From positions 1 to 41,469 of IMG/VR virus record IMGVR_UViG_3300028829_006607: a DNA stretch of 41,469 bases; one strand, given 5' to 3'. This document shows, piece by piece, positions 1,564-17,435 of the stretch. The translations under genes and the position numbers were made by a program. The notes beneath the pieces are model-generated. The model ran no database searches and was not told where the DNA came from. It was given only the letters and a program-made list of their open reading frames with translations. Each line of letters starts with the position of its first letter. Within the stretch, counting starts at the first letter, position 1. The DNA comes from a virus.

Positions 1564-1741
1564 TTTTCTCTAGTATCCTTTCTAACAAGTTTTCTATTCT
1601 ATTTAATCTATATTCTAAATCGTTCAATCTTTTTTGTTCTTTACGTCTTTTATTAATAGTTGCTTTAAGAGACGGATCAGTATTAATAATAGCACCGCCT
1701 CTCTTTTCAAGATACGGATGACCTTGTATATTTTTATGCAA
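1556..1741 (-). CDS. Small coiled-coil protein (61 aa), probable TTG start
   Basis: A 61-aa basic protein whose second half (residues about 28-58, INKRRKEQKRLNDLEYRLNR and on) has heptad-spaced Leu and Ile residues and should form a short coiled coil. The frame has no in-frame ATG; TTG at 1741 is the likely start, with an AAGGA-like site about 10 nt upstream. It overlaps the end of the previous gene by 8 nt and the start of the next by 8 nt, the normal packing of this operon, which is the main reason to call it real. Function unknown; a small assembly or oligomerisation factor is possible. Confidence 0.5.
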   Translation of the reverse strand: MHKNIQGHPYLEKRGGAIINTDPSLKATINKRRKEQKRLNDLEYRLNRIENLLERILEKNG

Positions 1742-3587
1742 CTGCTAATATCCTTAAATTTTTAAGTCTAGGCACATATGCTTCGTTTTTAGTTTTCATT
1801 CTAACTCTAACTCTAAACTCTTGAAAATCTTCTCCTACTGCATGTTCTGCTGAATATTCTTTAAAGTCTTCAGCACTATTAAACGCACCGTAATTTTTTT
1901 CACTTATAAATGTATTAAGTTTAAAATCTTCCCAATCTTGAGCATCTATATCTGCAGTATCACCTATACGTTTCACTTTAAATGCAATTTCAATTTCATT
2001 AGTAGGATTCATATCAGCTAAAAATTTAACTATTAAAGTATCAGCAGGTGTAGCTAATTCTGTAATCTTAGTAATGTAGTCTGCATGATCTTGTTTAGCT
2101 GCTGTAAGTGACGCAATATAAGAAGCTAACTTAGCTTGTATATTTGCATTGTCAGAATCTCCTTCTTCTAAAAAGTCAGAGTCATTAGCTCTTTTTGATT
2201 CAAAAATTGGATACTTATTCTGTAGATCTGAATCATCAGGCTGCATTCCAGCTCTATTTCTTAGTAACTTAATTTTATTTACAACCCCTTGTGATGGAGA
2301 TTCAACTGGTATTACAGGTGAGTATCTTTCATCAGCTGTGTTAAGTTCTAGTTGCATTTCAAATGATCTATTAGTAGAATTAACAGTAGATAAAATTGAT
2401 TTAGGATTAGTAAAAGTTGTTACTTTATCTGTTTCAACATATGCATAAGCTTCATCTATACTACCTACAGCTTGATAACTTTCAGCTGAAGTATCTAAAC
2501 CTAGTAGTTGACTTGATATAACGTTATCAATAGTACTACCAGTTGTAGTTTTAATCTTAGCATCCACTTTAGTAAAGAGATTGTTTATAGGATTAAGATT
2601 AGTGTATAGATAATCGTACTGTAAGTTAGAACTCACTTTCATATTATAACCACCTGCATCTAAAGTTTCTCTTGCATTAGAAGCTACTTTTATAAAATAA
2701 GTATCTTGTGTAGCATACAATACATCATGTGTATCTACAAAAGAACTTGATGCGGCGTCAGCTTGCGTATTAATATCAGTAACCGGAATACCTGCTATTT
2801 CAGATGCTCCGTTTGGTCCCTCAACTCCTGATACTACGACTTTTTGTCCTGATCCATACATTCCATGATTAGGATGCTTTATTAAAATATATGGTGAATG
2901 CTTAAAAGTTCTTATTGGTGTGCCGTTATTCACAGTACCAATATTAACTGCTAGTTTACTTAACTTAGATCTTAACTGTGCTGTAGCTACTCCAGTATTA
3001 AAACTAGCTCTATATAATTTAAACTTTAAATCTTTATTAGGGTCCGGTATATAAACTCCACCATTTTCTGATGTAAAGAACGAACCACCTGAACCTCCTA
3101 TACTAGGCGGCGAAGATATTAATCCACCTAATCCAGAAGTCAAGTCTGGCTTACCTATTTCAGCTGTCCATAAACTTGTAAGAGAAGATTGGGTTCTTAC
3201 TACTATACAATATTCCTGAGCAGAAATCAACTTAACAGGTGAATTAAATCTAAAATTAGTTGGTGTCGATGCTACTGCTCTACCTGAACCGGTACCATCT
3301 GAATCAGATAAAAATTTGGAAGCGTATCCAACTACTATTTGTCCTGGTCTACCTTGTACTGTATTTCTAATTTCAACTCTAACTTGATTTTGGTTTGAGG
3401 ATAAATCTACTACGTCAAAAAACAAATCAATAGCAGTGACAAAAGCTCCTTCTTTTATCTTAACATCGTTTTCGTAATCCTCACCACCAGAAGTATCAAC
3501 TGGTCTACCGTCACCATCAACACTAATTAATTTTTTTATGATAGCTGGTAACGTGAACGTTTGTGCTATTGCGCCTTTAACTGCCAT
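1734..3587 (-). CDS. Baseplate/fibre protein resembling the C-terminal part of DUF4815-type proteins
   Basis: A 617-aa virion protein. The N-terminus carries AQTFTL, then GAFVTAIDLFFDV, VRVEIRNTVQGRPGQIVV, a YCIVV strand, and later KDLKFKLYRASFNTG. As I recall the family, these motifs occur in this order in the C-terminal portion of large cyanophage and pelagiphage DUF4815-type structural proteins, where the block starts with DPLAQTF. Here it is a separate gene whose ATG follows directly on the desaturase stop (TAAATG) and has a GGGGAG ribosome site. It appears to be a detached partner of the protein at 4357-8997. Four Asp-Ser-Asp motifs are present. The location, after gp8 and before gp14, is that of T4 genes 9-12. 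Exact role in the baseplate is inferred. Confidence 0.6.
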   Translation of the reverse strand: MAVKGAIAQTFTLPAIIKKLISVDGDGRPVDTSGGEDYENDVKIKEGAFVTAIDLFFDVVDLSSNQNQVRVEIRNTVQGRPGQIVVGYASKFLSDSDGTGSGRAVASTPTNFRFNSPVKLISAQEYCIVVRTQSSLTSLWTAEIGKPDLTSGLGGLISSPPSIGGSGGSFFTSENGGVYIPDPNKDLKFKLYRASFNTGVATAQLRSKLSKLAVNIGTVNNGTPIRTFKHSPYILIKHPNHGMYGSGQKVVVSGVEGPNGASEIAGIPVTDINTQADAASSSFVDTHDVLYATQDTYFIKVASNARETLDAGGYNMKVSSNLQYDYLYTNLNPINNLFTKVDAKIKTTTGSTIDNVISSQLLGLDTSAESYQAVGSIDEAYAYVETDKVTTFTNPKSILSTVNSTNRSFEMQLELNTADERYSPVIPVESPSQGVVNKIKLLRNRAGMQPDDSDLQNKYPIFESKRANDSDFLEEGDSDNANIQAKLASYIASLTAAKQDHADYITKITELATPADTLIVKFLADMNPTNEIEIAFKVKRIGDTADIDAQDWEDFKLNTFISEKNYGAFNSAEDFKEYSAEHAVGEDFQEFRVRVRMKTKNEAYVPRLKNLRILAVA

Positions 3588-4394
3588 TTACCATTTCTCC
3601 CCTTGTATTGCTAACTTAGATGATAATAAAAATTTTATCATAGAACCAGTTATATCTATTTCATACCATGCTCTGCTAAAATTCCAATCCCAGGGTTCAG
3701 CATGATGATTATTATGCCACCCTTCACCGAATGTTAACAGTGCTACCCACCACACATTTGAACTATCGTTATCTTGTTTATATCTTTTATAACCAAGTTC
3801 GGAGTGTGCGAACGTATTATTTATTATACTTGTAGTGATTCCTATTACAGATGGTAAAATGAATCCCCAATATAATCCATACATACCAAAAATACTAAAC
3901 ATTACAGCTGCATGAATTAAAATTATTAGAAAATAATATTGATGTAAAAGTACTTGAAACTTATCTTTTATAATATGTCTATACTCTAATAAGTTAAACT
4001 TAAACGAATCATACTTATCATTCTTTAAAAAAACTAATCCTTTATCTGGTGAATGAGGATCTTTTTCCGTATCAGCATGCTTATGATGCTCCCAGTGAAC
4101 TATAACCCAAGTTAAAGGACTACCTGTACCTTGAATAGCTCCTAGGTATGAACCTAATCTTTCCATCCATTTGTACTTGAACTCAAATGATTGATGTGTA
4201 AGACATCTATGTAAAGTCATAGTTATTCCTATGCATCCAGTTAAGAAGTATACAAATAATGATATTGAAAAACCTAGTAAATCAATAGGAAAACTAAAAG
4301 TAAAAGGTAAAGTTAATGCTAATAGTATAAGTAAGTAATGTAGTAACTTTATTTTTCTACCAGTTGGACTGAATACGTTTAATCGATCTAACAT
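3588..4394 (-). CDS. Membrane fatty-acid (acyl lipid) desaturase
   Basis: A 268-aa integral-membrane di-iron desaturase of the delta-9 acyl-CoA/acyl-lipid type, which introduces double bonds into fatty acyl chains. All three histidine boxes are intact: HRCLTH (residues 62-67), HWEHH (100-104) and HNNHH (227-231), with the extra NNTFAH motif near 192-197. Hydrophobic segments lie at about 20-60 and 150-190. Length fits short bacterial and phage members. Lipid desaturases are known in cyanophages as auxiliary metabolic genes. It overlaps the 3' end of the giant baseplate gene by 38 nt and is followed at once by another structural gene, so it should be expressed late with virion genes. A role in altering host membrane fluidity during infection is inferred. 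Confidence 0.92.
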   Translation of the reverse strand: MLDRLNVFSPTGRKIKLLHYLLILLALTLPFTFSFPIDLLGFSISLFVYFLTGCIGITMTLHRCLTHQSFEFKYKWMERLGSYLGAIQGTGSPLTWVIVHWEHHKHADTEKDPHSPDKGLVFLKNDKYDSFKFNLLEYRHIIKDKFQVLLHQYYFLIILIHAAVMFSIFGMYGLYWGFILPSVIGITTSIINNTFAHSELGYKRYKQDNDSSNVWWVALLTFGEGWHNNHHAEPWDWNFSRAWYEIDITGSMIKFLLSSKLAIQGEKW

Positions 4395-7300
4395 TTGCTT
4401 TCTTTAGATATCCTTTCTGAACTAATTTACCAGTAAACCAAACTATAGGTCTAAACAATCTTAAGACTAAACTATTAAATGTAAAATAGTTACCCTTCAT
4501 TTCTTCTTGTAGACCATGAGTTCTAGTTTTTGCAAACCATTCTAGAGCAGTTCTTATATAAGTATTTGTAGGCATCTTCTTTACAAAGTATAAGAACAGT
4601 TTATGATATCCTAATTCATAAGCATCATCAAGTTTCTTAAATTTATTATATCTCATCCATACTCTATTAGAATACATTGGCATATTGTACATTTTATTCA
4701 TCATAGTACATACAATTTTACCACCGCCGCCTCCGCCGCCTTCGGAACTGCTTCCATCGTCATGACTTCCGTGACCAAAGTCACCATAATTCATATCCAT
4801 ATAACTAGGATTATAAGATGGTGGACTATCACCCCAAGAGTCACCGCCTCCTCCGCCACCGCCGTAATTTAAGTACTCAGTAGAAGATGAAGTAACAGTT
4901 TGCTCTTCTGTTCTAATTATAACGTCTTCAACTCCATCAGTTCTAAACTTAGATAAAAATCCTACTTCATACTTAGAAGCGACAATATAGATAGCTGATG
5001 CTATAGTAGTTTTAGTTGAATCAAATAATGTAAATCTTAATTGACCAGTTTTAAAAGTTGAAGGAGGAATAGTAAATCTACCTCTTATCATTCCTAATGC
5101 ATCAGTAGTTAATGTACCTTTATTTGTATTAATATAAGTAACATCACCTGTAGAATTATCAGTCATCTGACATAAATCAGTAACATTAATATATTCAAAA
5201 GTAGCTATAAGACTTACATCAGGTCTTAAACCTTCTGCTTTAAAAACAATTTCTCTAGAAGGACAAAATGCATCTCTATCAATTTTAACTTGTTCTAAAT
5301 TAAAACTATTAGCTGTATCTCTAGTAACGAATTGCTTCTGTTTTATATTTCTAATTTGATTTTGAGCTGTATTAACTGTTCTTCTATTACCGCTTCGTGA
5401 AGTAGTTACAGAAGCATCACCTATATCATTCCAAGATTCTGACCAAGGCTCTGACATCGGAATAGGTACTACGTTTAAGTTAAATTCATTTACTGATACT
5501 TCTGAGTCATTTACTATACCATTTCTATCAATAAGAAACTTAGTAAGTTCTTTTTTAGCTGGGTCTACGTTAAACTCTCTAGCGGGATCTAATGTAATAT
5601 AACCTTTATATGTTAACTCAGCATATGGGTTTATTCTTACACTTGAAGAAGCTTGAGGTTGATCTAAGAATGTACTTTGCGTATAAGTCTTAGTTAAAAA
5701 ACCTTGATCAAAATAATAAGGATCTATACCTGCTTCAGTAAGCGCACCAGCTGATGAATCTAATATTTCTGTTTCTACATAAGTAGGTACTGATAATGGT
5801 CTTAAAGATTCATCTGCAATTGATGCTTTAGATGTAGATAAGTCATTATCTTGAATAACATCATCTTTATCAGTCTTAAAATCATCTACGATGAATCCTA
5901 ACTTAGTTCTATTAGCTGTATCATCAGTTAAAGCTTGAGTTTCTAAGAATGATAATGAAATGGCATCTTCTAAATTTCTAATTCTTTTTTCAATACCACC
6001 AATATCTTTCATAGTATATCGTTTATTGTCTTGAGGTACAGTTATAATTTCACTTACATCTTTAAATGCAGCTGGTATTAATGCAGTTGCAATTGGCATA
6101 CCTAATGATGAATCAAACTTTGGTATTTGAGGATTTCTTGCTGCTAATGAGCTAAATCTTTTCAATCCAAAATAAGGTTTAGTAGCTACATAATAGATAT
6201 CATATCTAGATAGATACTCATCATAAGTCATTGTAAATTTAGCTGCAGGAGTAGCTCCTGTTTCACCTATACCAGGTAATAAGAAAGGTCTATTTGTAAT
6301 AGACTTGTGATTAAAATGGAAAGTATTTTGTCCAGTATTATTATTTGTAGTTACTTTCTTTCTAAAATCAATTACGTCTCTTAACTTTATACCTTTTGTT
6401 CTATCTTTATTACCTAAGTCAACTGGCTTTTCGAAAAATCTAGGATCAGTAGCGAAGAAGCCTGCTGAAGAATAACTATCAGCATTGTAATAAAACTTAT
6501 TAGTTGTATCTTGATCTTCAAAATAAGAAAAGAATATAGTTAAATCACCTACTTCAGGAGCTCTAATTAATGGTTTTCTTATAATTCTTCCAGTTTCTAA
6601 TATATTATTTCTTTGACCATCATCTAAGAAATAATTATCTATAATATCAGTACCGAATTTTTCAAGAGTGTCTACTATTATTGCAGTTCTATCAGAAACA
6701 TAAGTTACTTGATTTACAAAACTATCTAAGTCATTAGGTGTTGTAACTAATAATATCTCATTAGCAATAAAATTAGATGTAGCGTTTTCTTTAATAATTT
6801 CTAATACTTCAGTAGAACCTGTACCTGATCTACTAGTATGGTAACCTGCAGAACCTGTTAATTCAGATTGATTTTTATCGCTATTAGATAAAGCAACTAA
6901 ACCTCTACACTTAGAAGTTGTTCCAGTTACAATTGAACCTTGAGGTATAATACCTCCGCCTGATATTGTAATGTTTATTTGTTTAAAGTGAGAGAAAGTA
7001 TTATTAGCATCACTCTTACTTATTCCATATACATCATAGATATCAGAATACAATAAAGTTGATTCTCTATCTTGAGCAGACCAACCATAGTTAATTGAGC
7101 TTGTTCTATCATTTCTAATTTTTAAGTAAACATACTTAAGCTTTTTACTTATTTCATTACCATCATCAATTCTAGTTCTAGTAAAATCACCATTAGCATT
7201 AGCAGTAGAAAATAATGTATCAGCTGTATTGGGTGTTATAGCTGTAGATCCAGAAGTACTAGCAATCACAGGTGGATTAGCAAACAATACTTCAAAATCA

Positions 7301-8997
7301 TTATCGAATACTTTAGCGTCATCTCTAGCAGTTTTAACTGCACTTTGAGTTTCACCAAATAATTTTCCAGTAGCATTTTGTACTTTAGCTAAAGATTTTT
7401 TCTCTACTTTAAAATTACCTGTTTTACTTCTAATGTTAGTTATGTTAGCCCAACTATAAGTAGTTGTAGCTGCAATAGTTGAATTAAATGAAGTATTAAC
7501 AGAAGATCTAATTACTTGACCTTTTCTAAAAGGTTTGTTAAAATCAATAACTAATATTTCAGAATCAGTTACGTGATCAACATCTGCAGCTCCAGTGCTT
7601 TCTAACTCTACATAATAACCTTTAGTATCTCTAGTTGATTTAACATCATTACCTATACTTAAAGTTTTAGGAGGACCTTCTAGTCTTAACTTTTGGAAAA
7701 ACTTTATATCGTATAAATGCAACTTAGGTTGATTTCTATCTTCTAATGCGTATGCTCTAGCATAACCATAAGTACGACTATCTGAATCTTGTAATAATAA
7801 TCTATTAGCATGTAAGTGAGGATCGTTACTAGTGGCGCTTGTAAAACCACCCATTGCAACATCTGCTTCTTTATTTACATTAATATAAGGTACACCAGTT
7901 ACTGCAATAGTTTGACTATTAACTCTATTAAATGATAACGGTTTTGGTACTTTTAGATTAGTATTAACTCTTTGATCAATTCTAAAACCTCTTACATAAG
8001 CTTTAATCTTTGATGAGTTAACATAGAATGCATCTTCGCTATCAGATCTACTATACTTTATTGAAATAGGATCTACTGAAAAGTCACCATGACCTTCAAA
8101 TGTTCTAGTTGCTAAAACATCTCCTATACCGCTATTAACGCCGCCTCTAGTACTTTGTTGTTGAGCAACACCGTTTTCAATAACCATAACTTGAAAAAAG
8201 TTAGGATCATTATTAGCAGTTAATGATCTAATACCAAACGATAAAGTCTGTTTTAGTCTATGAGCTCCAGGAGCTCCTTCATTAGTACTACCTCTTGCAT
8301 TATCAAATAAAGTAGCATCACTATTCGGTGTAATTAAACTTTCACTAACTGTAAATCCTAATTTAACTGAAGGATTTTTATTTGTAGCATCAATTACAAC
8401 TGTTTGTTTAGCTACTCTAGTAAAGAAACCTTGTATATAATATACACCTTCTTCAATATGAGCTAATGAACAATCAGATATAGCTGAATAAGTATTGTAT
8501 ATCTCAGCTGTTAAAGAAGGGTTATCTGCAACAGTAGCATATATGTATCCACCAGCTGTAGAAAAAGTAGTTGAAGTAATATATTTTAAGTAGATAGAAC
8601 CTACTGAATTAGTACCTACTGTTCCAACAGGGTTAGATAATACTACAGCTTTAACAGAACCTGATGCATTTGAAATTACTTTACCTTCTAAAGTAGATAA
8701 ATTTGCTAGTATAGCTCCTATTCTAGCTCCTGTAGAAGGAAATGAAATATTAGATGAGCCAGTTAAAGTCATCTTTTTACTTTGATTGTCAAAATCAATT
8801 TTAGCGCCTGTTACTCTGGAACCATCTTTAAACAGATAATTACCCATTCTTGTAATTTGTTGCTGTAAAATTGTTTGTGCTTGTGATAACTCTCTTGCTT
8901 GAACTGGAAAACCAGGTCTAAACAAAACTCTTAAAAAGTCTTTGTTATCATCAAAGTCATCAAAGTAAGGACTTATATTTAAATCTATATTGGCCAT
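4357..8997 (-). CDS. Giant DUF4815-type baseplate/fibre protein (1546 aa)
   Basis: The largest gene in the window. The N-terminus (MANIDLNISPYFDDFDDNKDF, then FRPGFPVQARELSQAQTILQ) is the hallmark of the DUF4815 family of marine T4-like phage structural proteins. An Ig-like region near residues 1230-1330 (REIVFKAEGLRPD...GMIRGRFTIPPSTFKTG) precedes two runs of seven glycines flanking a Ser/Asp/Tyr-rich linker (about 1370-1425). The tail then begins KIVCTMMNKMYN and is helical and basic; similar modules end several marine phage tail proteins. The poly-Gly codons form a GC-rich island in AT-rich DNA. The start is fixed by an AATAAATA box 4 nt upstream and no other ribosome site. Position after gp8 suggests a T4 gp9/10/11-like peripheral baseplate role. 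Confidence 0.75.
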   Translation of the reverse strand: MANIDLNISPYFDDFDDNKDFLRVLFRPGFPVQARELSQAQTILQQQITRMGNYLFKDGSRVTGAKIDFDNQSKKMTLTGSSNISFPSTGARIGAILANLSTLEGKVISNASGSVKAVVLSNPVGTVGTNSVGSIYLKYITSTTFSTAGGYIYATVADNPSLTAEIYNTYSAISDCSLAHIEEGVYYIQGFFTRVAKQTVVIDATNKNPSVKLGFTVSESLITPNSDATLFDNARGSTNEGAPGAHRLKQTLSFGIRSLTANNDPNFFQVMVIENGVAQQQSTRGGVNSGIGDVLATRTFEGHGDFSVDPISIKYSRSDSEDAFYVNSSKIKAYVRGFRIDQRVNTNLKVPKPLSFNRVNSQTIAVTGVPYINVNKEADVAMGGFTSATSNDPHLHANRLLLQDSDSRTYGYARAYALEDRNQPKLHLYDIKFFQKLRLEGPPKTLSIGNDVKSTRDTKGYYVELESTGAADVDHVTDSEILVIDFNKPFRKGQVIRSSVNTSFNSTIAATTTYSWANITNIRSKTGNFKVEKKSLAKVQNATGKLFGETQSAVKTARDDAKVFDNDFEVLFANPPVIASTSGSTAITPNTADTLFSTANANGDFTRTRIDDGNEISKKLKYVYLKIRNDRTSSINYGWSAQDRESTLLYSDIYDVYGISKSDANNTFSHFKQINITISGGGIIPQGSIVTGTTSKCRGLVALSNSDKNQSELTGSAGYHTSRSGTGSTEVLEIIKENATSNFIANEILLVTTPNDLDSFVNQVTYVSDRTAIIVDTLEKFGTDIIDNYFLDDGQRNNILETGRIIRKPLIRAPEVGDLTIFFSYFEDQDTTNKFYYNADSYSSAGFFATDPRFFEKPVDLGNKDRTKGIKLRDVIDFRKKVTTNNNTGQNTFHFNHKSITNRPFLLPGIGETGATPAAKFTMTYDEYLSRYDIYYVATKPYFGLKRFSSLAARNPQIPKFDSSLGMPIATALIPAAFKDVSEIITVPQDNKRYTMKDIGGIEKRIRNLEDAISLSFLETQALTDDTANRTKLGFIVDDFKTDKDDVIQDNDLSTSKASIADESLRPLSVPTYVETEILDSSAGALTEAGIDPYYFDQGFLTKTYTQSTFLDQPQASSSVRINPYAELTYKGYITLDPAREFNVDPAKKELTKFLIDRNGIVNDSEVSVNEFNLNVVPIPMSEPWSESWNDIGDASVTTSRSGNRRTVNTAQNQIRNIKQKQFVTRDTANSFNLEQVKIDRDAFCPSREIVFKAEGLRPDVSLIATFEYINVTDLCQMTDNSTGDVTYINTNKGTLTTDALGMIRGRFTIPPSTFKTGQLRFTLFDSTKTTIASAIYIVASKYEVGFLSKFRTDGVEDVIIRTEEQTVTSSSTEYLNYGGGGGGGDSWGDSPPSYNPSYMDMNYGDFGHGSHDDGSSSEGGGGGGGKIVCTMMNKMYNMPMYSNRVWMRYNKFKKLDDAYELGYHKLFLYFVKKMPTNTYIRTALEWFAKTRTHGLQEEMKGNYFTFNSLVLRLFRPIVWFTGKLVQKGYLKKANVRSIKRIQSNW

Positions 8998-9010: not shown

Positions 9011-10477
9011 CTAAAATGTCAATACAAAGTTGAATGATTCAATTTGATCTATTGCTCTTGTTATTTGTTGTGATCTTATATCAGATATAATAATATCTCC
9101 TGAGTTAAACAGTACTTCTCTATTAGCTACCGAAGAAATAGTTAAAGGATTACCAGTCAAAGAGCCTGTTGCATTTACTAATTGTAAGTTGTCTCCAGCT
9201 ATGAATGAATCTTTATCTTTTGTTTTACCTAAGTTTACATAATAATATTTTTTCTTACTAGAATCTATAGCTACTATTCTTCCTACTTTACTTGTAGTAC
9301 TAGTAAAATTATTACCAGATACAGTTCCTGTAGCAACAATATCACCAACGTTAAAAGTAGCATTACCACCATCGCTGTCACTTGCTACAAAAGCTTTACA
9401 TGCAATTAAAAAATCATTCTTAGCTACTTTACCTGTTGATCTATCAATAGGATTTCTCAATAAGTTAACTTGTCTAAAATTATTTCTAGTAAATTTAGTA
9501 ACGTCTCCATCAGGTGTATTTCTTACACTCACCATAACATTTTTTGCATTTAATTCTAATGGAGCATTAGTTCCGTGTCCTAATCCAGGAGCTACATTTA
9601 CAGTTAAACCGTTAGGTGTATTAGATCCTATCTTAGCAATAGCACCTTTACTGTAACCTTCACCTGGTGTAATTAAATTAAAAGTAAAATCAGAATCAGT
9701 CTTAGTTATAGATCCTGCAAATGTTGTTACTGGTGTTGTAGAAGTACTATTCTGTAAAGTTAGTGTAATGGTAGTTGGTATACTAGTCCAGTCACCGTAA
9801 ATAGTTCTTAACGAAGTTTCGAAAGTTGAATCATTTATTGCAACATCATAAACTGTACCTACTTTACTATCTCTTTGAACTTGAAATTGTTTAAATTTAG
9901 CTGTACCAGGATTTAAAGTTAAAGCTTCAGCTACAGATACTGCTTCCGGTATAGGAATATAACTTTCAGTAACAAATCTTAGACTATCAGAAGCATCAAT
10001 AGTGTACATATAAATCCAATGATAACCATCAGCAGTCGTAAACGGCAAGCTCGCGTCTCCAGAAGGTGACGCAGTTGAAGGGCTTCCCGGATAATGAAGT
10101 ACCTTGTAAACATTTAATTTTGTAACCCCTTGAATGATTGACGTAACCATTGCGTAACTATCTGCTATATAAGTTGTACCACTAGTCCAGTTTACTCTTG
10201 GGACAACTCTTGATACACCACCTTTAGCTAATTTATGAGCACTTATTGCATGCTGCATATAATAAGTTTGGTCGTCATTATTAAAACCAGCTGATTCACC
10301 GCCAACAAATTCAGCGTCATCATCTATTCCATCACTATCAGTATATCTTTGTAAATCAGAATCATTATTAAAACATATAAACGCATAATACTCATCATCA
10401 TTTAAAGTATCTCTTAGATTGTCTCTAAAAGATTTTGCTACTAACACATTTAATCCTGTCGTAATTTTTGCTGTCAT
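9011..10477 (-). CDS. 8: Baseplate wedge protein gp8
   Basis: A 488-aa homologue of T4 gp8 (334 aa), a structural subunit of the baseplate wedge. Shared landmarks with T4 gp8 are an N-terminal segment in which VARSFRDN-like residues precede a YYAFICF strand, then VVPRVNW (T4 VIPRRDW), DGYHWIYMY (T4 DGYVWEYLF), an ESYIPIPE segment (T4 NEYIVVPWPE), and the extreme C-terminus IESFNFVLTF (T4 INILFTF). The extra length is an insertion of beta-rich sequence in the middle. Its ATG overlaps the gp7 stop by one base. It carries four Asp-Ser-Asp motifs. Gene order 6-7-8 is as in T4. Confidence 0.85.
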   Translation of the reverse strand: MTAKITTGLNVLVAKSFRDNLRDTLNDDEYYAFICFNNDSDLQRYTDSDGIDDDAEFVGGESAGFNNDDQTYYMQHAISAHKLAKGGVSRVVPRVNWTSGTTYIADSYAMVTSIIQGVTKLNVYKVLHYPGSPSTASPSGDASLPFTTADGYHWIYMYTIDASDSLRFVTESYIPIPEAVSVAEALTLNPGTAKFKQFQVQRDSKVGTVYDVAINDSTFETSLRTIYGDWTSIPTTITLTLQNSTSTTPVTTFAGSITKTDSDFTFNLITPGEGYSKGAIAKIGSNTPNGLTVNVAPGLGHGTNAPLELNAKNVMVSVRNTPDGDVTKFTRNNFRQVNLLRNPIDRSTGKVAKNDFLIACKAFVASDSDGGNATFNVGDIVATGTVSGNNFTSTTSKVGRIVAIDSSKKKYYYVNLGKTKDKDSFIAGDNLQLVNATGSLTGNPLTISSVANREVLFNSGDIIISDIRSQQITRAIDQIESFNFVLTF

Positions 10478-13400
10478 TAATCTGTTCTCGTTTTATAATA
10501 CTGACTTGGACTTCTATAGTCACTATCACCTTCTAAAAGATTTAATTCTGTCTTATTTAATGGGTCTAGATAAGTATTGGTCCAAACGATATTGTTTGGT
10601 TTAACCCAAAAATCTCTCTTAACAGGATTCTTTTCTTTCGCATACTGCGGTATTTTATTTAATTGGTAGTAGAACTGTCTTACTTTATGACCTTCAGCAG
10701 CGTTTTGTATTGCAGAAGACCAGCCTGCTATTTCCCAACCTTCTTTATTTACTCTTGCAACATGAATAGTATTCCATTTTTGTTGAAAAGCTTCAAGATC
10801 AAATAACTCCTGACTACCAATATTAAAACTAAATTCGTTATTTAGTTTATTAGCTTTAATAAAATCTTTTTGCATTTCTAAATTATACTCAAAATCTCTT
10901 TTAGTAATATTTTGTTTTACAATATCAGAATCATTGTCTTTTAATTTTTGATAATTAATACCTTTAAAGAGATGTTTATCATCACTGTCATTAGAGTATC
11001 TACCATCACTATCATTTAAGTAGTCAAATCTAATAAATTTAATTCTATTAACTTTTTCTGAATCAAAAAGCAAAAAGTTATTTTCTCCTGCTGGGAATGT
11101 AGTTTGACCTATTTCAATTATTTTTTCATCTGGAAATCTATCCAAAGTTTTATTTTTAAAATAATCTTGATAGTGTTCACTATCTAAATTTACATCAGGG
11201 TATAACTTTGTAGTAAAAGTTTTTTCATGAACATTGATAGATCCATCTGAATCTTTTGTTTGAGTAGATCTAGGATCAATATAACCTAATGGTTCATAAT
11301 CCCAAAAACTATTTCCAAATTCTGCATCATCTCCTTCTTCAGCTACTGATGATAAATTATCAGCTGATATACTTCTACCATCTGGTGTAGATATATTAAA
11401 GAAGTTAAAAGGGTTAGAAGCATATAATACTGAAGATGCAGTAAGTAAATTGGCTGAAGTAGTTGCGTTTATACTATGATCCATTGATCTATCAAAAGTC
11501 ATTTTATGCTGTTCACCAGAATCGTACCCGCTACTTGATTTATTTGAAGTATCTGAAACGGCTGAATTAATGTTTAATTGAGCTAATAATCTAAATCCAG
11601 CTGGGTGTAAAATTTCTTTAACATACTCTCTCCACTGAGCAATAGATAAATTTGATTTTAAACTGTATGAAAAATTATCAAAGAATAAATTATCTCTAAT
11701 TACTCCACCTGATAAACTATTACTAAAACCTTTATCATCTAAAAATTGTTTACTAGTTTTTCCAGAACCTTCAAATGATAATGTACCGGTTGCTCTTTGA
11801 TGGTTTGCAATAATATTTTTATAAGGAAAAGTTTCACTGACTACTGTTTCGTTAGTTTCTGTATCAACAGGAGCTAATCTTAAAACTTTATATCTCTGAT
11901 TTTCAATAACTGATAAATCTGAATCAATAGGAAATCTATCAGTAGAAACAATTCTAGGTGCTTGAGTTAACTTAACAACATTTTTATTAGCTGTTACAGA
12001 AGTTATTCTTCCTATAAAATTAGTATCTTGAAATCTACCTACACTATCATTTAAACCTACAAAAGGTGTATTCTTAAGTTGTTTAAATGATATCTGTCTA
12101 TACTTATCACTATCTTCATAACTAGTTAATTGGTCAAAATGAAAATTATCTAGACCTTTTAGTCTAGGGTCTTGTAAAAATATTCTTAAACCTTCAGAGT
12201 CACGGTTACCTTTATCATCACTGTCTATAACATCAAACCTGTAAGTACTATCTGATCCTATTTGATTCTGTAATAAAGTTCTAAATGACTTAGATAAATT
12301 TTCACCAATAGTATGACTAAATTTAAATTCACTATCTACCCATTGATAATTTTCAAAATCAAACTTATAAGGTATTCTAACTCTTATATCTTCAGAGTCA
12401 TTTGTAGTAAATTTTCTATTAGTAAACTTTACAGATATTCTAAAACTATCTGAATCATCTAAAAACCCATCAGAGTCAGCTTCAAATCTTTGAATTCTTA
12501 CTGTTTGTCCTTCAGTGAGATCTGACTGACCATGAACAGTTATATTCATAGGAAATATAACATCTACACCATCTGAATCAAAGTAACCTTTATTAAAGAA
12601 ACTAAAATTATTAATCTTACCTATTTGATTAGAGAAAGGAACTATCTCTGTATTAGTTCCGTTTAGAGATAATATTTTTACATCAGGTAACTCGTTAAAG
12701 TTACCACCTTCATTGATAGGAACTGTTACGTTTTGAAAATCGTTAGCAAGAAAACCAGTACCTAGTTGTCCTAATCTAACGTTATTATTATCTATCTCAG
12801 TTATTCTTCCTGCGTTATCAACTCCTGTAATAATAGCACTACCACCAGAACCAGAACCAGAACTTTTAGAAGTAAAAGTTATTGCATCTCCAACAACGAA
12901 ATCTATTCCTCTATTTTTTACAGTTGCACCTGTAACAGGGCCTGCTTGTAAACCTTCTATAGGTACACTAAACTCTCTATTATTTTGAATTATTCTAACT
13001 TCATCTCCGGCACTATAACCACCTATATCACTATCATCTATTTTTATAGATTTAATTTGTCTTAAAACTGTACCAGTAATAAAGTTTGAATTATCTATAG
13101 TACTACTCACAACTATTTCAGAACCAACAGTTAAGTTTAATGCAGCTGCAGAAATTAGTTGCACTACAGATTTAGATCCTATAGTATTAACTTTAGTACC
13201 AGATAAACCTGTTCCTATTTCACTATCATCTTTTATTATGCTTGTTTTTGAAAAATCGATATTGTTCAAAACTTTGTCTGAGTCATTTACTAATAAAGCT
13301 AATGTATCAAATGATATGTAGTTACCTTCGGAAGCATCTAGTATTTGCTGACCAGGTTGTATTACATCTATCTCAGTATTGAATAATAATCTAAAAAGTA

Positions 13401-13758
13401 ACTTAAAGCTATTAGGTGTGCCTTTACTTAGATAAACATCTCTTATTTTTTTAATTAAAAATCTATCATCAGAACCTTCAGGTACAACTGCAATAGGTAG
13501 AATATCTCTTTTAAAATATTCTAAAAACTTAACAATAGTTTTATCTATGTCTCTATTTTCAGTTTGTCCTTGAATAAGATTATTAGCATTACCTAATTTC
13601 TTGTAAGCTGTTAATCTAGTAGTAGTTTCTGAATCATTAACTTTTTCAAGATATTCATAGTAAGCCTCCATAAATGATACTAAAAGAGGATTATTAGCTC
13701 TTATAAAGTCAGGAATCTGCTCACTGATATATGGAAATACTTTTGTATACTGAGTCAT
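10477..13758 (-). CDS. 7: Baseplate wedge protein gp7
   Basis: A 1093-aa wedge protein. Residues 15-140 (FIRANNPLLVSFMEAYYEYL, then FLEYFKRDILP, then YLSKGTPNSFKLLFRLLFNTE) match the C-terminal region of T4 gp7 (FEAFCEAYIQYL...FYSTKGIEASYKFLFKVLYNEE). Residues around 725 (WREYVKEILHPAGFRLLAQL) match T4 gp7 (WKSDVIRFVHPVGFGFIAITL). The T4 N-terminal half is absent and long beta-rich insertions are present instead, so the architecture is reorganised relative to T4. It has about 13 Asp-Ser-Asp tripeptides encoded with both AGT and TCN serine codons, far above expectation. Start and stop overlap gp6 and gp8 by single bases. Confidence 0.82.
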   Translation of the reverse strand: MTQYTKVFPYISEQIPDFIRANNPLLVSFMEAYYEYLEKVNDSETTTRLTAYKKLGNANNLIQGQTENRDIDKTIVKFLEYFKRDILPIAVVPEGSDDRFLIKKIRDVYLSKGTPNSFKLLFRLLFNTEIDVIQPGQQILDASEGNYISFDTLALLVNDSDKVLNNIDFSKTSIIKDDSEIGTGLSGTKVNTIGSKSVVQLISAAALNLTVGSEIVVSSTIDNSNFITGTVLRQIKSIKIDDSDIGGYSAGDEVRIIQNNREFSVPIEGLQAGPVTGATVKNRGIDFVVGDAITFTSKSSGSGSGGSAIITGVDNAGRITEIDNNNVRLGQLGTGFLANDFQNVTVPINEGGNFNELPDVKILSLNGTNTEIVPFSNQIGKINNFSFFNKGYFDSDGVDVIFPMNITVHGQSDLTEGQTVRIQRFEADSDGFLDDSDSFRISVKFTNRKFTTNDSEDIRVRIPYKFDFENYQWVDSEFKFSHTIGENLSKSFRTLLQNQIGSDSTYRFDVIDSDDKGNRDSEGLRIFLQDPRLKGLDNFHFDQLTSYEDSDKYRQISFKQLKNTPFVGLNDSVGRFQDTNFIGRITSVTANKNVVKLTQAPRIVSTDRFPIDSDLSVIENQRYKVLRLAPVDTETNETVVSETFPYKNIIANHQRATGTLSFEGSGKTSKQFLDDKGFSNSLSGGVIRDNLFFDNFSYSLKSNLSIAQWREYVKEILHPAGFRLLAQLNINSAVSDTSNKSSSGYDSGEQHKMTFDRSMDHSINATTSANLLTASSVLYASNPFNFFNISTPDGRSISADNLSSVAEEGDDAEFGNSFWDYEPLGYIDPRSTQTKDSDGSINVHEKTFTTKLYPDVNLDSEHYQDYFKNKTLDRFPDEKIIEIGQTTFPAGENNFLLFDSEKVNRIKFIRFDYLNDSDGRYSNDSDDKHLFKGINYQKLKDNDSDIVKQNITKRDFEYNLEMQKDFIKANKLNNEFSFNIGSQELFDLEAFQQKWNTIHVARVNKEGWEIAGWSSAIQNAAEGHKVRQFYYQLNKIPQYAKEKNPVKRDFWVKPNNIVWTNTYLDPLNKTELNLLEGDSDYRSPSQYYKTRTD

Positions 13759-16547: not shown

Positions 16548-17435
16548 ATGGCCAAGAATAATAGAAGAATTTTCAATCAAATCGGAAGAGCACAAGTCAC
16601 TGGTTTAGTTGATAAAAATAATAATAGTTTATTAGCTGATTCTGAATCAAGTGGTATTGTATCTTTTGATAACGTACGAATTAACGGAGAGCTAAAAGTA
16701 TACGGTAATCAAACTACCGTTAATTCTGTAACATTAAATGTAGCAGATAAAAATATTGTTTTAGCAAAAGGTGCATATGATTCTGATTCATATGACAATG
16801 TAGGTATTACTGTTGCAGATAGTGATGCATTATTTGAAAGAGGTACTTCTCCTACATTACAATATAATGCTCAAAGAGATGCTTGGATTGCTAATAGAAA
16901 AATATTAGTTAATACTAACAAAGAAGCAGCTACAGATTCAGACGCAACAGTTACTATTGGTGGTTTTAGTACTCAATTAGCAGCTAATACTAAATTTGCT
17001 GACTTAGTTGCTAGAGCAGATTCAGATACAATTAAAGTATCTTCTCTTCAAACTTTTGTTAATAAGTTAAGAATTGATTTAGATTCAGATACTTCTAAAC
17101 TTCAGTCACTTGATACTACAATAGGTTCAATTAAAGCTAAATTAGATTCTGATAGTAACAGACTACAAGCAATAAGTACTGAGTTTAAAGCTAGATTAGA
17201 TTCTGATACAACTAGAATAAGTTCTATAAATCGTCAATTGAATATTAATACTGCTAGCATTCAAAGTATTACTCTAGACTCAGATGGTGTTGTGAATATG
17301 TTCAATGAGCATTCATTAATTAACATTACTGCTGATTCAGATATTCTAAAGCCGCTCTTTAGAAAAGTTATGAACGACTTTACAATAAGAGATGTTGGTA
17401 ATAATATAGTATTCAGCTTCTTCGACGAAACTTAA
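16548..17435 (+). CDS. Tail fibre-like coiled-coil protein with LDSD repeats
   Basis: A 295-aa protein with the module INGELKVYGNQTTVNSVTLN followed by VADKNIVLA (residues about 45-74), which is widespread in fibre and structural proteins of marine T4-like phages. Residues 150-240 are heptad-like, with LDSD recurring at 178, 199, 217 and 243. Nine Asp-Ser-Asp tripeptides occur in total, eight with TCN serine codons. There is no signal peptide or membrane segment. It is the only structural gene on the plus strand in this part of the genome, between the lysis genes and gp25, which are both on the minus strand. Its 3' end overlaps the endolysin 3' end by 4 nt. Likely a trimeric fibre or fibre connector; the receptor-binding role is unproven. 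Confidence 0.65.
   Translation: MAKNNRRIFNQIGRAQVTGLVDKNNNSLLADSESSGIVSFDNVRINGELKVYGNQTTVNSVTLNVADKNIVLAKGAYDSDSYDNVGITVADSDALFERGTSPTLQYNAQRDAWIANRKILVNTNKEAATDSDATVTIGGFSTQLAANTKFADLVARADSDTIKVSSLQTFVNKLRIDLDSDTSKLQSLDTTIGSIKAKLDSDSNRLQAISTEFKARLDSDTTRISSINRQLNINTASIQSITLDSDGVVNMFNEHSLINITADSDILKPLFRKVMNDFTIRDVGNNIVFSFFDET

Follow-up and report, generated by a model that had tools for sequence, protein, structure and literature searches.

In the window, by which we mean the whole stretch of 41,469 nucleotides of viral DNA that was analysed, an intact fatty-acid desaturase gene lies between the two parts of a split VrlC baseplate gene. Together with the C-terminal domain encoded directly upstream of it, which we call CTM, this gene makes up a sharply bounded, exchangeable cassette set at a linker between VrlC domains, and the cassette has been exchanged between phage contigs that are otherwise dissimilar. 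The features of the locus are as follows.

4726..8997, minus strand: first (N-terminal) part of the two-layer baseplate protein VrlC, with a Gly/Ser-rich linker as its last stretch, next to CTM (phrog_358, alignment to Mosig)
4360..4725, minus strand: CTM domain, the last 122 aa encoded by the 1546-aa ORF, with the motif K-I-V-C-T-x-M-N, all-helical in the model (motif and alignment)
4357..4394, minus strand: 38-nt overlap of the upstream ORF end and the desaturase start
3588..4394, minus strand: desaturase ORF, 268 aa, ATG start, TAA stop at 3588-3590 (PF00487)
4194..4211, minus strand: His box 1, HRCLTH, residues 62-67 (sequence and alignment)
4083..4097, minus strand: His box 2, HWEHH, residues 100-104 (sequence and alignment)
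3804..3818, minus strand: Asn193 to His197, further invariant ligand positions (alignment, n=38)
3702..3716, minus strand: His box 3, HNNHH, residues 227-231 (sequence and alignment)
1734..3587, minus strand: C-terminal part of VrlC, a separate 617-aa ORF with its ATG straight after the desaturase stop (phrog_358, alignment to Mosig)

The desaturase and the split VrlC gene

The preliminary description of this DNA had reported a membrane desaturase with all three histidine boxes intact, and this was borne out by the ORF itself, by its match to PF00487 (FA_desaturase, E 2.3e-20, with 73.9 bits where the cut-off is 29.7) and by the alignment of 38 desaturases from viruses and bacteria. Invariant in that alignment are H62, H67, H100, H103 and H104 as well as N193, H197, H227, H230 and H231, and these ten positions, nine His and Asn193, are what we take to be the ten di-iron ligands of SCD1. 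When the AlphaFold model of the enzyme (mean pLDDT 93) was compared with the PDB, the top four matches were SCD chains (E 1e-9 to 4e-9, TMq 0.75-0.77), whereas the fold match to AlkB was far poorer (E 0.33), and likewise the profile comparison gave E 7e-42 for SCD 4ZYO as against E 1e-3 for AlkB. These data confirm that the ORF is not there by chance and is an intact gene of the SCD (stearoyl-CoA desaturase) family. An alkane-type, non-lipid hydroxylase is ruled out by fold and profile, in agreement with the earlier assignment to the lipid desaturases, and the expectation that the enzyme should be active is supported to the extent that, with its ligands invariant and its profile and modelled fold those of SCD, it is probably an active desaturase of the lipid-desaturase (SCD) type. 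Its ligand positions and fold are those of SCD1 (4ZYO, 4YMK, 6WF2) and of the PF00487 bacterial Delta-9 desaturases, but it is virus-borne, is 268 aa long and is only 21-23% identical to the SCD chains.

Among the best 80 cellular matches listed for the window desaturase the highest identity was 38%, and none of the 80 was titled SAR11 or Pelagibacter. Two desaturase queries each matched the same three of 50,697 phage records, none of which is a cyanophage. The earlier remark that no photosynthetic genes are in view agrees with a search for Photo_RC (PF00124), the sole family sought, which gave no match in the 41,469-bp record, possibly a fragment, and was positive in the Synechococcus control. 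The Pelagibacter phage Mosig EXVC030M (MT647606), a related myovirus with VrlC, also has a PF00487 desaturase, which is 28.5% identical to that of the window over 76% of the query; it lies about 14 kb from an undivided VrlC, beside an annotated Asp_Arg_Hydrox gene, whereas the window desaturase splits VrlC. A quickly built tree with 127 rows (37 of 74 bacterial desaturases, 8 viral ones linked to CTM and 82 other viral ones) and 36 forks left open placed the bacterial rows nearly all together, at 2 label changes; the 8 CTM-linked rows needed 6, of which at least 4 were forced. One viral contig (L018, L060 and L064) has six desaturase ORFs in a stretch of roughly 16 kb, the last of the six being truncated in L064 by the end of the locus.

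VrlC of Mosig is one gene encoding 2045 aa, whereas its homologue in the window consists of two ORFs with the desaturase between them. The upstream 1546-aa ORF matches positions 2-1237 of phrog_358 (E 6e-173) and aligns to Mosig VrlC as far as residue 1512, and the downstream 617-aa ORF matches positions 1764-2055 (E 9e-72) and aligns to Mosig residues 1541-2044, which places the break between Mosig residues 1512 and 1541, in the linker ahead of the 'DPLAQTF' domain. Directly upstream of the ATG of the second part there is, by eye, a Shine-Dalgarno-like AAGGGGAG. Because the desaturase gene overlaps the upstream ORF and its stop touches the ATG of the second part, VrlC appears from the sequence to be produced as two separate proteins whose ORFs flank that of the enzyme; the minus strand, the 38-nt overlap and the abutting stop are additions to the preliminary description. 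A 16.8-kb contig, L001, is the window's virus in another assembly (99.98% identity over 12,394 bp) and extends the window leftward with more late genes that are tail-like by eye. From homology and gene position, VrlC-CTM and the other carriers are presumably part of the virion. The third codon positions of CTM plus desaturase are G or C in 85 of 390 codons and those of the VrlC flanks in 261 of 2041 (p 8e-6), a contrast that is weak because the other genes of the window range from 0.115 to 0.254. As a separate observation, the predicted proteins of the window contain the tripeptide DSD 40 times as against 4.2 expected from composition, the ORFs that bear it including 10477-13758 (minus) and 16548-17432 (plus), and by eye DSD is also frequent in the L001 proteins past the left edge of the window.

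VrlC is split by CTM at Mosig residues of about 1512-1541 in the window, L093 and L106, and L100 fits this point with a C part that starts from 1529. There is a second split point at about 1313-1345 in L104 and L271, and a single linker common to every VrlC split is ruled out by the alignment to Mosig, which gives two different linkers. At the splits of L104 and L271 there is a desaturase together with a PF05118 hydroxylase. No desaturase was found at the VrlC split of L093, L100 and L106, and it follows that the split itself needs no enzyme. A plain association of VrlC with a desaturase was also rejected, since it is to the CTM end that the desaturase is tied, and this end is found on carrier proteins unrelated to one another.

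CTM and the desaturase as an exchanged cassette

The CTM domain of about 120 aa falls outside the match to Mosig VrlC and follows the Gly/Ser-rich linker. It has the motif K-I-[VI]-C-T-x-M-N, and K3, I4, C6, N10, Y13, W23, Y40, H41, V48 and T69 are invariant among 30 sequences. Nothing of known function matched it: PHROGs had no family for 29 members, Pfam gave one marginal match to a single member (E 0.007), its helical model (pLDDT 84) had no match to a fold in the PDB, and in BFVD the matches were phage proteins without known function alone (best E 4e-3). Weak sequence matches to Pumilio-like proteins (best E 0.011) were set aside as chance similarity between helical sequences. CTM stands at or near the C-terminus of ORFs that are 138 to 1546 aa long, some of them truncated by contig ends. 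In the 50,697 named phage records the CTM of the window (query at E 0.01) matched one record and another CTM matched two, and the cultured pelagiphage HTVC033P has the domain. In four loci (L107, L120, L158 and L161) an ORF of 366-367 aa starts at most 10 bases behind the CTM ORF, and it is NrdB (PF00268) in both of the loci checked, L107 and L120.

The CTM sample consists of the best 80 of at least 565 IMG/VR relatives, ranked by likeness to four desaturase-linked CTMs, and hence it leans toward desaturase-linked ones. A desaturase lies directly behind 19 of 86 CTM ORFs when refetched contigs are counted, and when duplicates (L081, L084, L085 and L128) were removed, 12 of the 67 distinct CTM domains in this best-80 sample had a desaturase next to them and 55 did not. 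The linked domains make up 12 of the 22 rows of one long-form clade as compared to 0 of the 45 other rows of this likeness-ranked sample, for which Fisher's test gives p 1e-7 with the relatedness of the rows ignored. Behind seven of the CTMs that lack a desaturase (L092, L101, L105, L106, L112, L126 and L143) no convincing desaturase remnant was found, the best match having an E of 6e-4 and the matches being short or on the opposite strand.

The borders of the cassette can be read from DNA comparisons between contigs. When L001 was compared with L002 and L003, which are podovirus-like as judged by eye from their neighbour genes, the sole DNA match began at the first codons of CTM and ended with the stop codon of the desaturase, with identities of 76% and 78%, respectively. 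L104 and L271 are both VrlC-type loci with related flanks and they carry different desaturases, that of L271 resembling the desaturase of the podovirus-like L091 (73% DNA identity). L097 and L076 have flanks that are 95-98% identical, and what lies between these, a stretch that starts within the carrier protein and takes in the enzyme, has been replaced, being CTM, desaturase and hydroxylase in the one and a different C-terminal domain with its desaturase in the other.

Sister cassettes and neighbouring genes

This other end, which we call TIC, is a divergent C-terminal tail domain paired with a desaturase. TIC plus desaturase is the only match between L069 and L076 (98%), and it alone matches between L069 and L253 (93%). 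A desaturase lies behind TIC in 12 of 12 ORFs, three of which are refetched contigs, and in 5 of 5 at 90% non-redundancy, and TIC had no match among the 50,697 named phage records. That TIC may be a remote relative of CTM is suggestive only: hhalign gave a score of 23.3 with 8 TIC rows, one of them a stray 26-residue piece, and the best of 20 column-shuffled controls scored 19.5.

In another set of loci (L015-L017, L020/L021, L024/L028, L041, L042 and L062) a small gene of the HlyC family directly adjoins the desaturase. Five of these HlyC ORFs were scanned and matched PF02794 (E 1e-19 to 3e-28), and the remainder were called by a local profile. The HlyC ORF touches a desaturase in 12 of 12 cases in the first locus set, in 17 of 18 in the larger set, where the sole exception, L247, is at a contig end, and in 6 of 6 non-redundant cases, rates that are not unbiased, the loci having mostly been collected via their desaturase. 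The longest block common to L041 and to L042 or L062 consists of HlyC, the desaturase and the first 46-52 or so residues of the next, Gly-rich protein, with 79-80% identity to both, and beyond this N-terminal peptide the Gly-rich protein is unrelated between L041 and L042 and related (44%) between L042 and L062. The peptide ends in KFICFGEGG, and by eye this is like the K-I-[VI]-C with which CTM starts behind its Gly-rich linker. In the cultured pelagiphages HTVC111P, HTVC026P and HTVC112P (L259-L261) HlyC comes straight before a tail protein, and no desaturase was found near it or matched elsewhere in these records. This tail protein, possibly an acylated tail tip judging from its sequence, has an N-terminus that by eye is hydrophobic and in HTVC111P also rich in lysine. 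Pairs of RTX toxins and HlyC-type acyltransferases (PF02794) resemble the cassettes in that the gene of an acyl-modifying enzyme stands beside its presumed protein target and in that HlyC itself adjoins the sister desaturases; the differences are that no HlyC was found in the window, where the PF02794 search is weak because its control was silent, and that the presumed target is a protein of the phage structural region.

A gene for a PF05118 Asp/Asn-hydroxylase lies behind the desaturase in L104, L091, L264 (the contig of L095) and L271. Relatives of the CTM-linked, L091-type desaturase that are 57-71% identical to it (L272-L277) had no CTM in their available DNA, and in the three loci checked, L272 (TauD), L273 (PF05118) and L277, a 2OG-Fe(II) oxygenase gene lies behind the desaturase. 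Since the oxygenase is kept in these CTM-free relatives, it may be the steadier partner of that desaturase family.

Possible roles of the enzyme

The reading that we put forward, tentatively, is that the window enzyme is a dedicated partner which tailors an acyl chain attached to, or in contact with, the CTM-bearing protein. The desaturase would act at the inner membrane late in infection and would carry out a Delta-9 type reaction using O2 and a host electron donor, both of which it would need. Its substrate would be an acyl chain that the baseplate protein either carries on its CTM end or binds there, with the invariant Lys or Cys of the CTM K-I-x-C as the candidate attachment residue, and the particle would thereby bear a lipid-modified or lipid-contacting tail part. 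In the sister cassettes the HlyC-type acyltransferase would attach the chain to the N-terminal peptide exchanged in the same block. What supports this reading is that the borders of the CTM plus desaturase and TIC plus desaturase modules are exact in the contig comparisons, together with the replacement between L097 and L076, the block that HlyC, desaturase and N-terminal peptide form, the desaturases behind TIC and within one CTM clade, and the two linkers at which CTM splits VrlC. Counting against it are the 55 of 67 distinct CTMs with no desaturase behind them, including those in the split VrlC of L093, L100 and L106, the CTM-free relatives with an oxygenase gene, the lack of an HlyC match in the window and of a CTM match with known function, the cultured pelagiphages that have HlyC and a tail protein without a desaturase, and the viral desaturases of the 80 desaturase loci, of which 83 of 92 non-redundant ones stand beside neither CTM nor TIC nor HlyC. 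In addition, the known relatives of the enzyme work on acyl-CoA or acyl-lipids and not on protein-bound chains.

Almost as likely is host-membrane remodelling by an auxiliary metabolic gene, the enzyme desaturating host membrane lipids during infection, for fluidity, lysis, DNA entry or membrane-associated assembly, and the late-gene position meaning late expression only. Viral fatty-acid desaturases were reportedly read as auxiliary metabolic genes by Roitman in 2018. The same interpretation is given in the available portion of PMC7300359, whose viral desaturases are of the same family as the window enzyme and have the three His boxes, but that portion gives no link to a virion-protein domain, whereas the gene in the window splits VrlC and travels with CTM. 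The SCD-type family and fold of the window enzyme and the same 83 of 92 sampled desaturases outside the CTM, TIC and HlyC contexts also favour remodelling of the host membrane, which nevertheless leaves unexplained both the pairing with HlyC and the near-codon-exact co-exchange with one end-domain of the structural region. Since the gene lies inside a split VrlC and moves with CTM, a role tied to the CTM-bearing protein is about as likely, and the earlier statements that the enzyme has a general membrane-fluidity function and that its target must be the host membrane are not upheld in that form; a tailed virion without a membrane could nonetheless bear protein-bound acyl chains.

It is improbable that the desaturase is mere cargo with no functional tie, recombination being anchored in the conserved CTM or TIC end and in the junction that follows it. 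Mosaicism is typical of phage late operons, CTM also precedes other genes such as the NrdB gene of L107 and L120, and it occurs with no desaturase in the three split VrlC genes named above, all of which fits with hitchhiking, but in the long-form CTM clade the gene that comes next is a desaturase in 12 of the 22 rows, these desaturases being of different lineages, and behind TIC it is one in every ORF. Slightly less probable still is that what the enzyme oxidises, by itself or jointly with the 2OG-Fe(II) hydroxylase of the sister cassettes, is not a fatty acid but side chains of CTM or of the structural protein, or some other small substrate that the two share. The PF05118 genes behind four of the desaturases, the PF05118 or TauD genes behind the CTM-free relatives (L273 and L272) and the Asp_Arg_Hydrox gene beside the Mosig desaturase are in line with this, while by sequence and fold the enzyme belongs with the acyl desaturases and not with the alkane hydroxylase, and the window had no PF05118 match in a search whose control was silent. 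The cassette also resembles polymorphic toxin-immunity cassettes, in which a C-terminal domain and an overlapping downstream gene are swapped together on unrelated carriers, and the large, variable carriers with a Gly-rich linker and a C-terminal domain of about 115 aa have the same architecture. That the domain is a virion-delivered effector and that the membrane enzyme protects the producer or excludes rivals is nevertheless very improbable, as CTM has no toxin-like match, the downstream gene encodes a lipid-type enzyme and we know of no desaturase that serves as an immunity protein.

In a literature search of open-licence papers no account of a link between CTM and a desaturase was found; the available portions of PMC7029224, PMC7300359 and PMC11480375 hold none, PMC9599517 gave no match to a lipid term, and no open-licence paper was found on HlyC-type acyltransferases and phage virions, on RTX toxin acyltransferases and phage tails or on the acylation of virion proteins. 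If the enzyme is a partner of CTM, one may go further and suppose that tailed phages hold a dedicated system for lipid modification of virion proteins, made up of an acyl-accepting or acyl-binding end and a cognate desaturase, a generalisation that we regard as doubtful. The exchangeable ends of such a system would be CTM, TIC or the N-terminal peptide with HlyC, and the cognate desaturase would set the unsaturation of the chain and so give a non-enveloped particle a tuned lipid foot that would serve membrane contact or genome entry.

The cassette borders define a precise pair of domain and enzyme, and cultured representatives of the cassette parts are at hand in HTVC033P (CTM) and in HTVC026P, HTVC111P and HTVC112P (HlyC and tail protein). 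The usual view is that viral desaturases tune host membranes. If the enzyme is indeed the partner of a virion domain, many phage lipid genes would need to be read anew, and tailed virions that are held to be 'lipid-free' might bear acylated parts.
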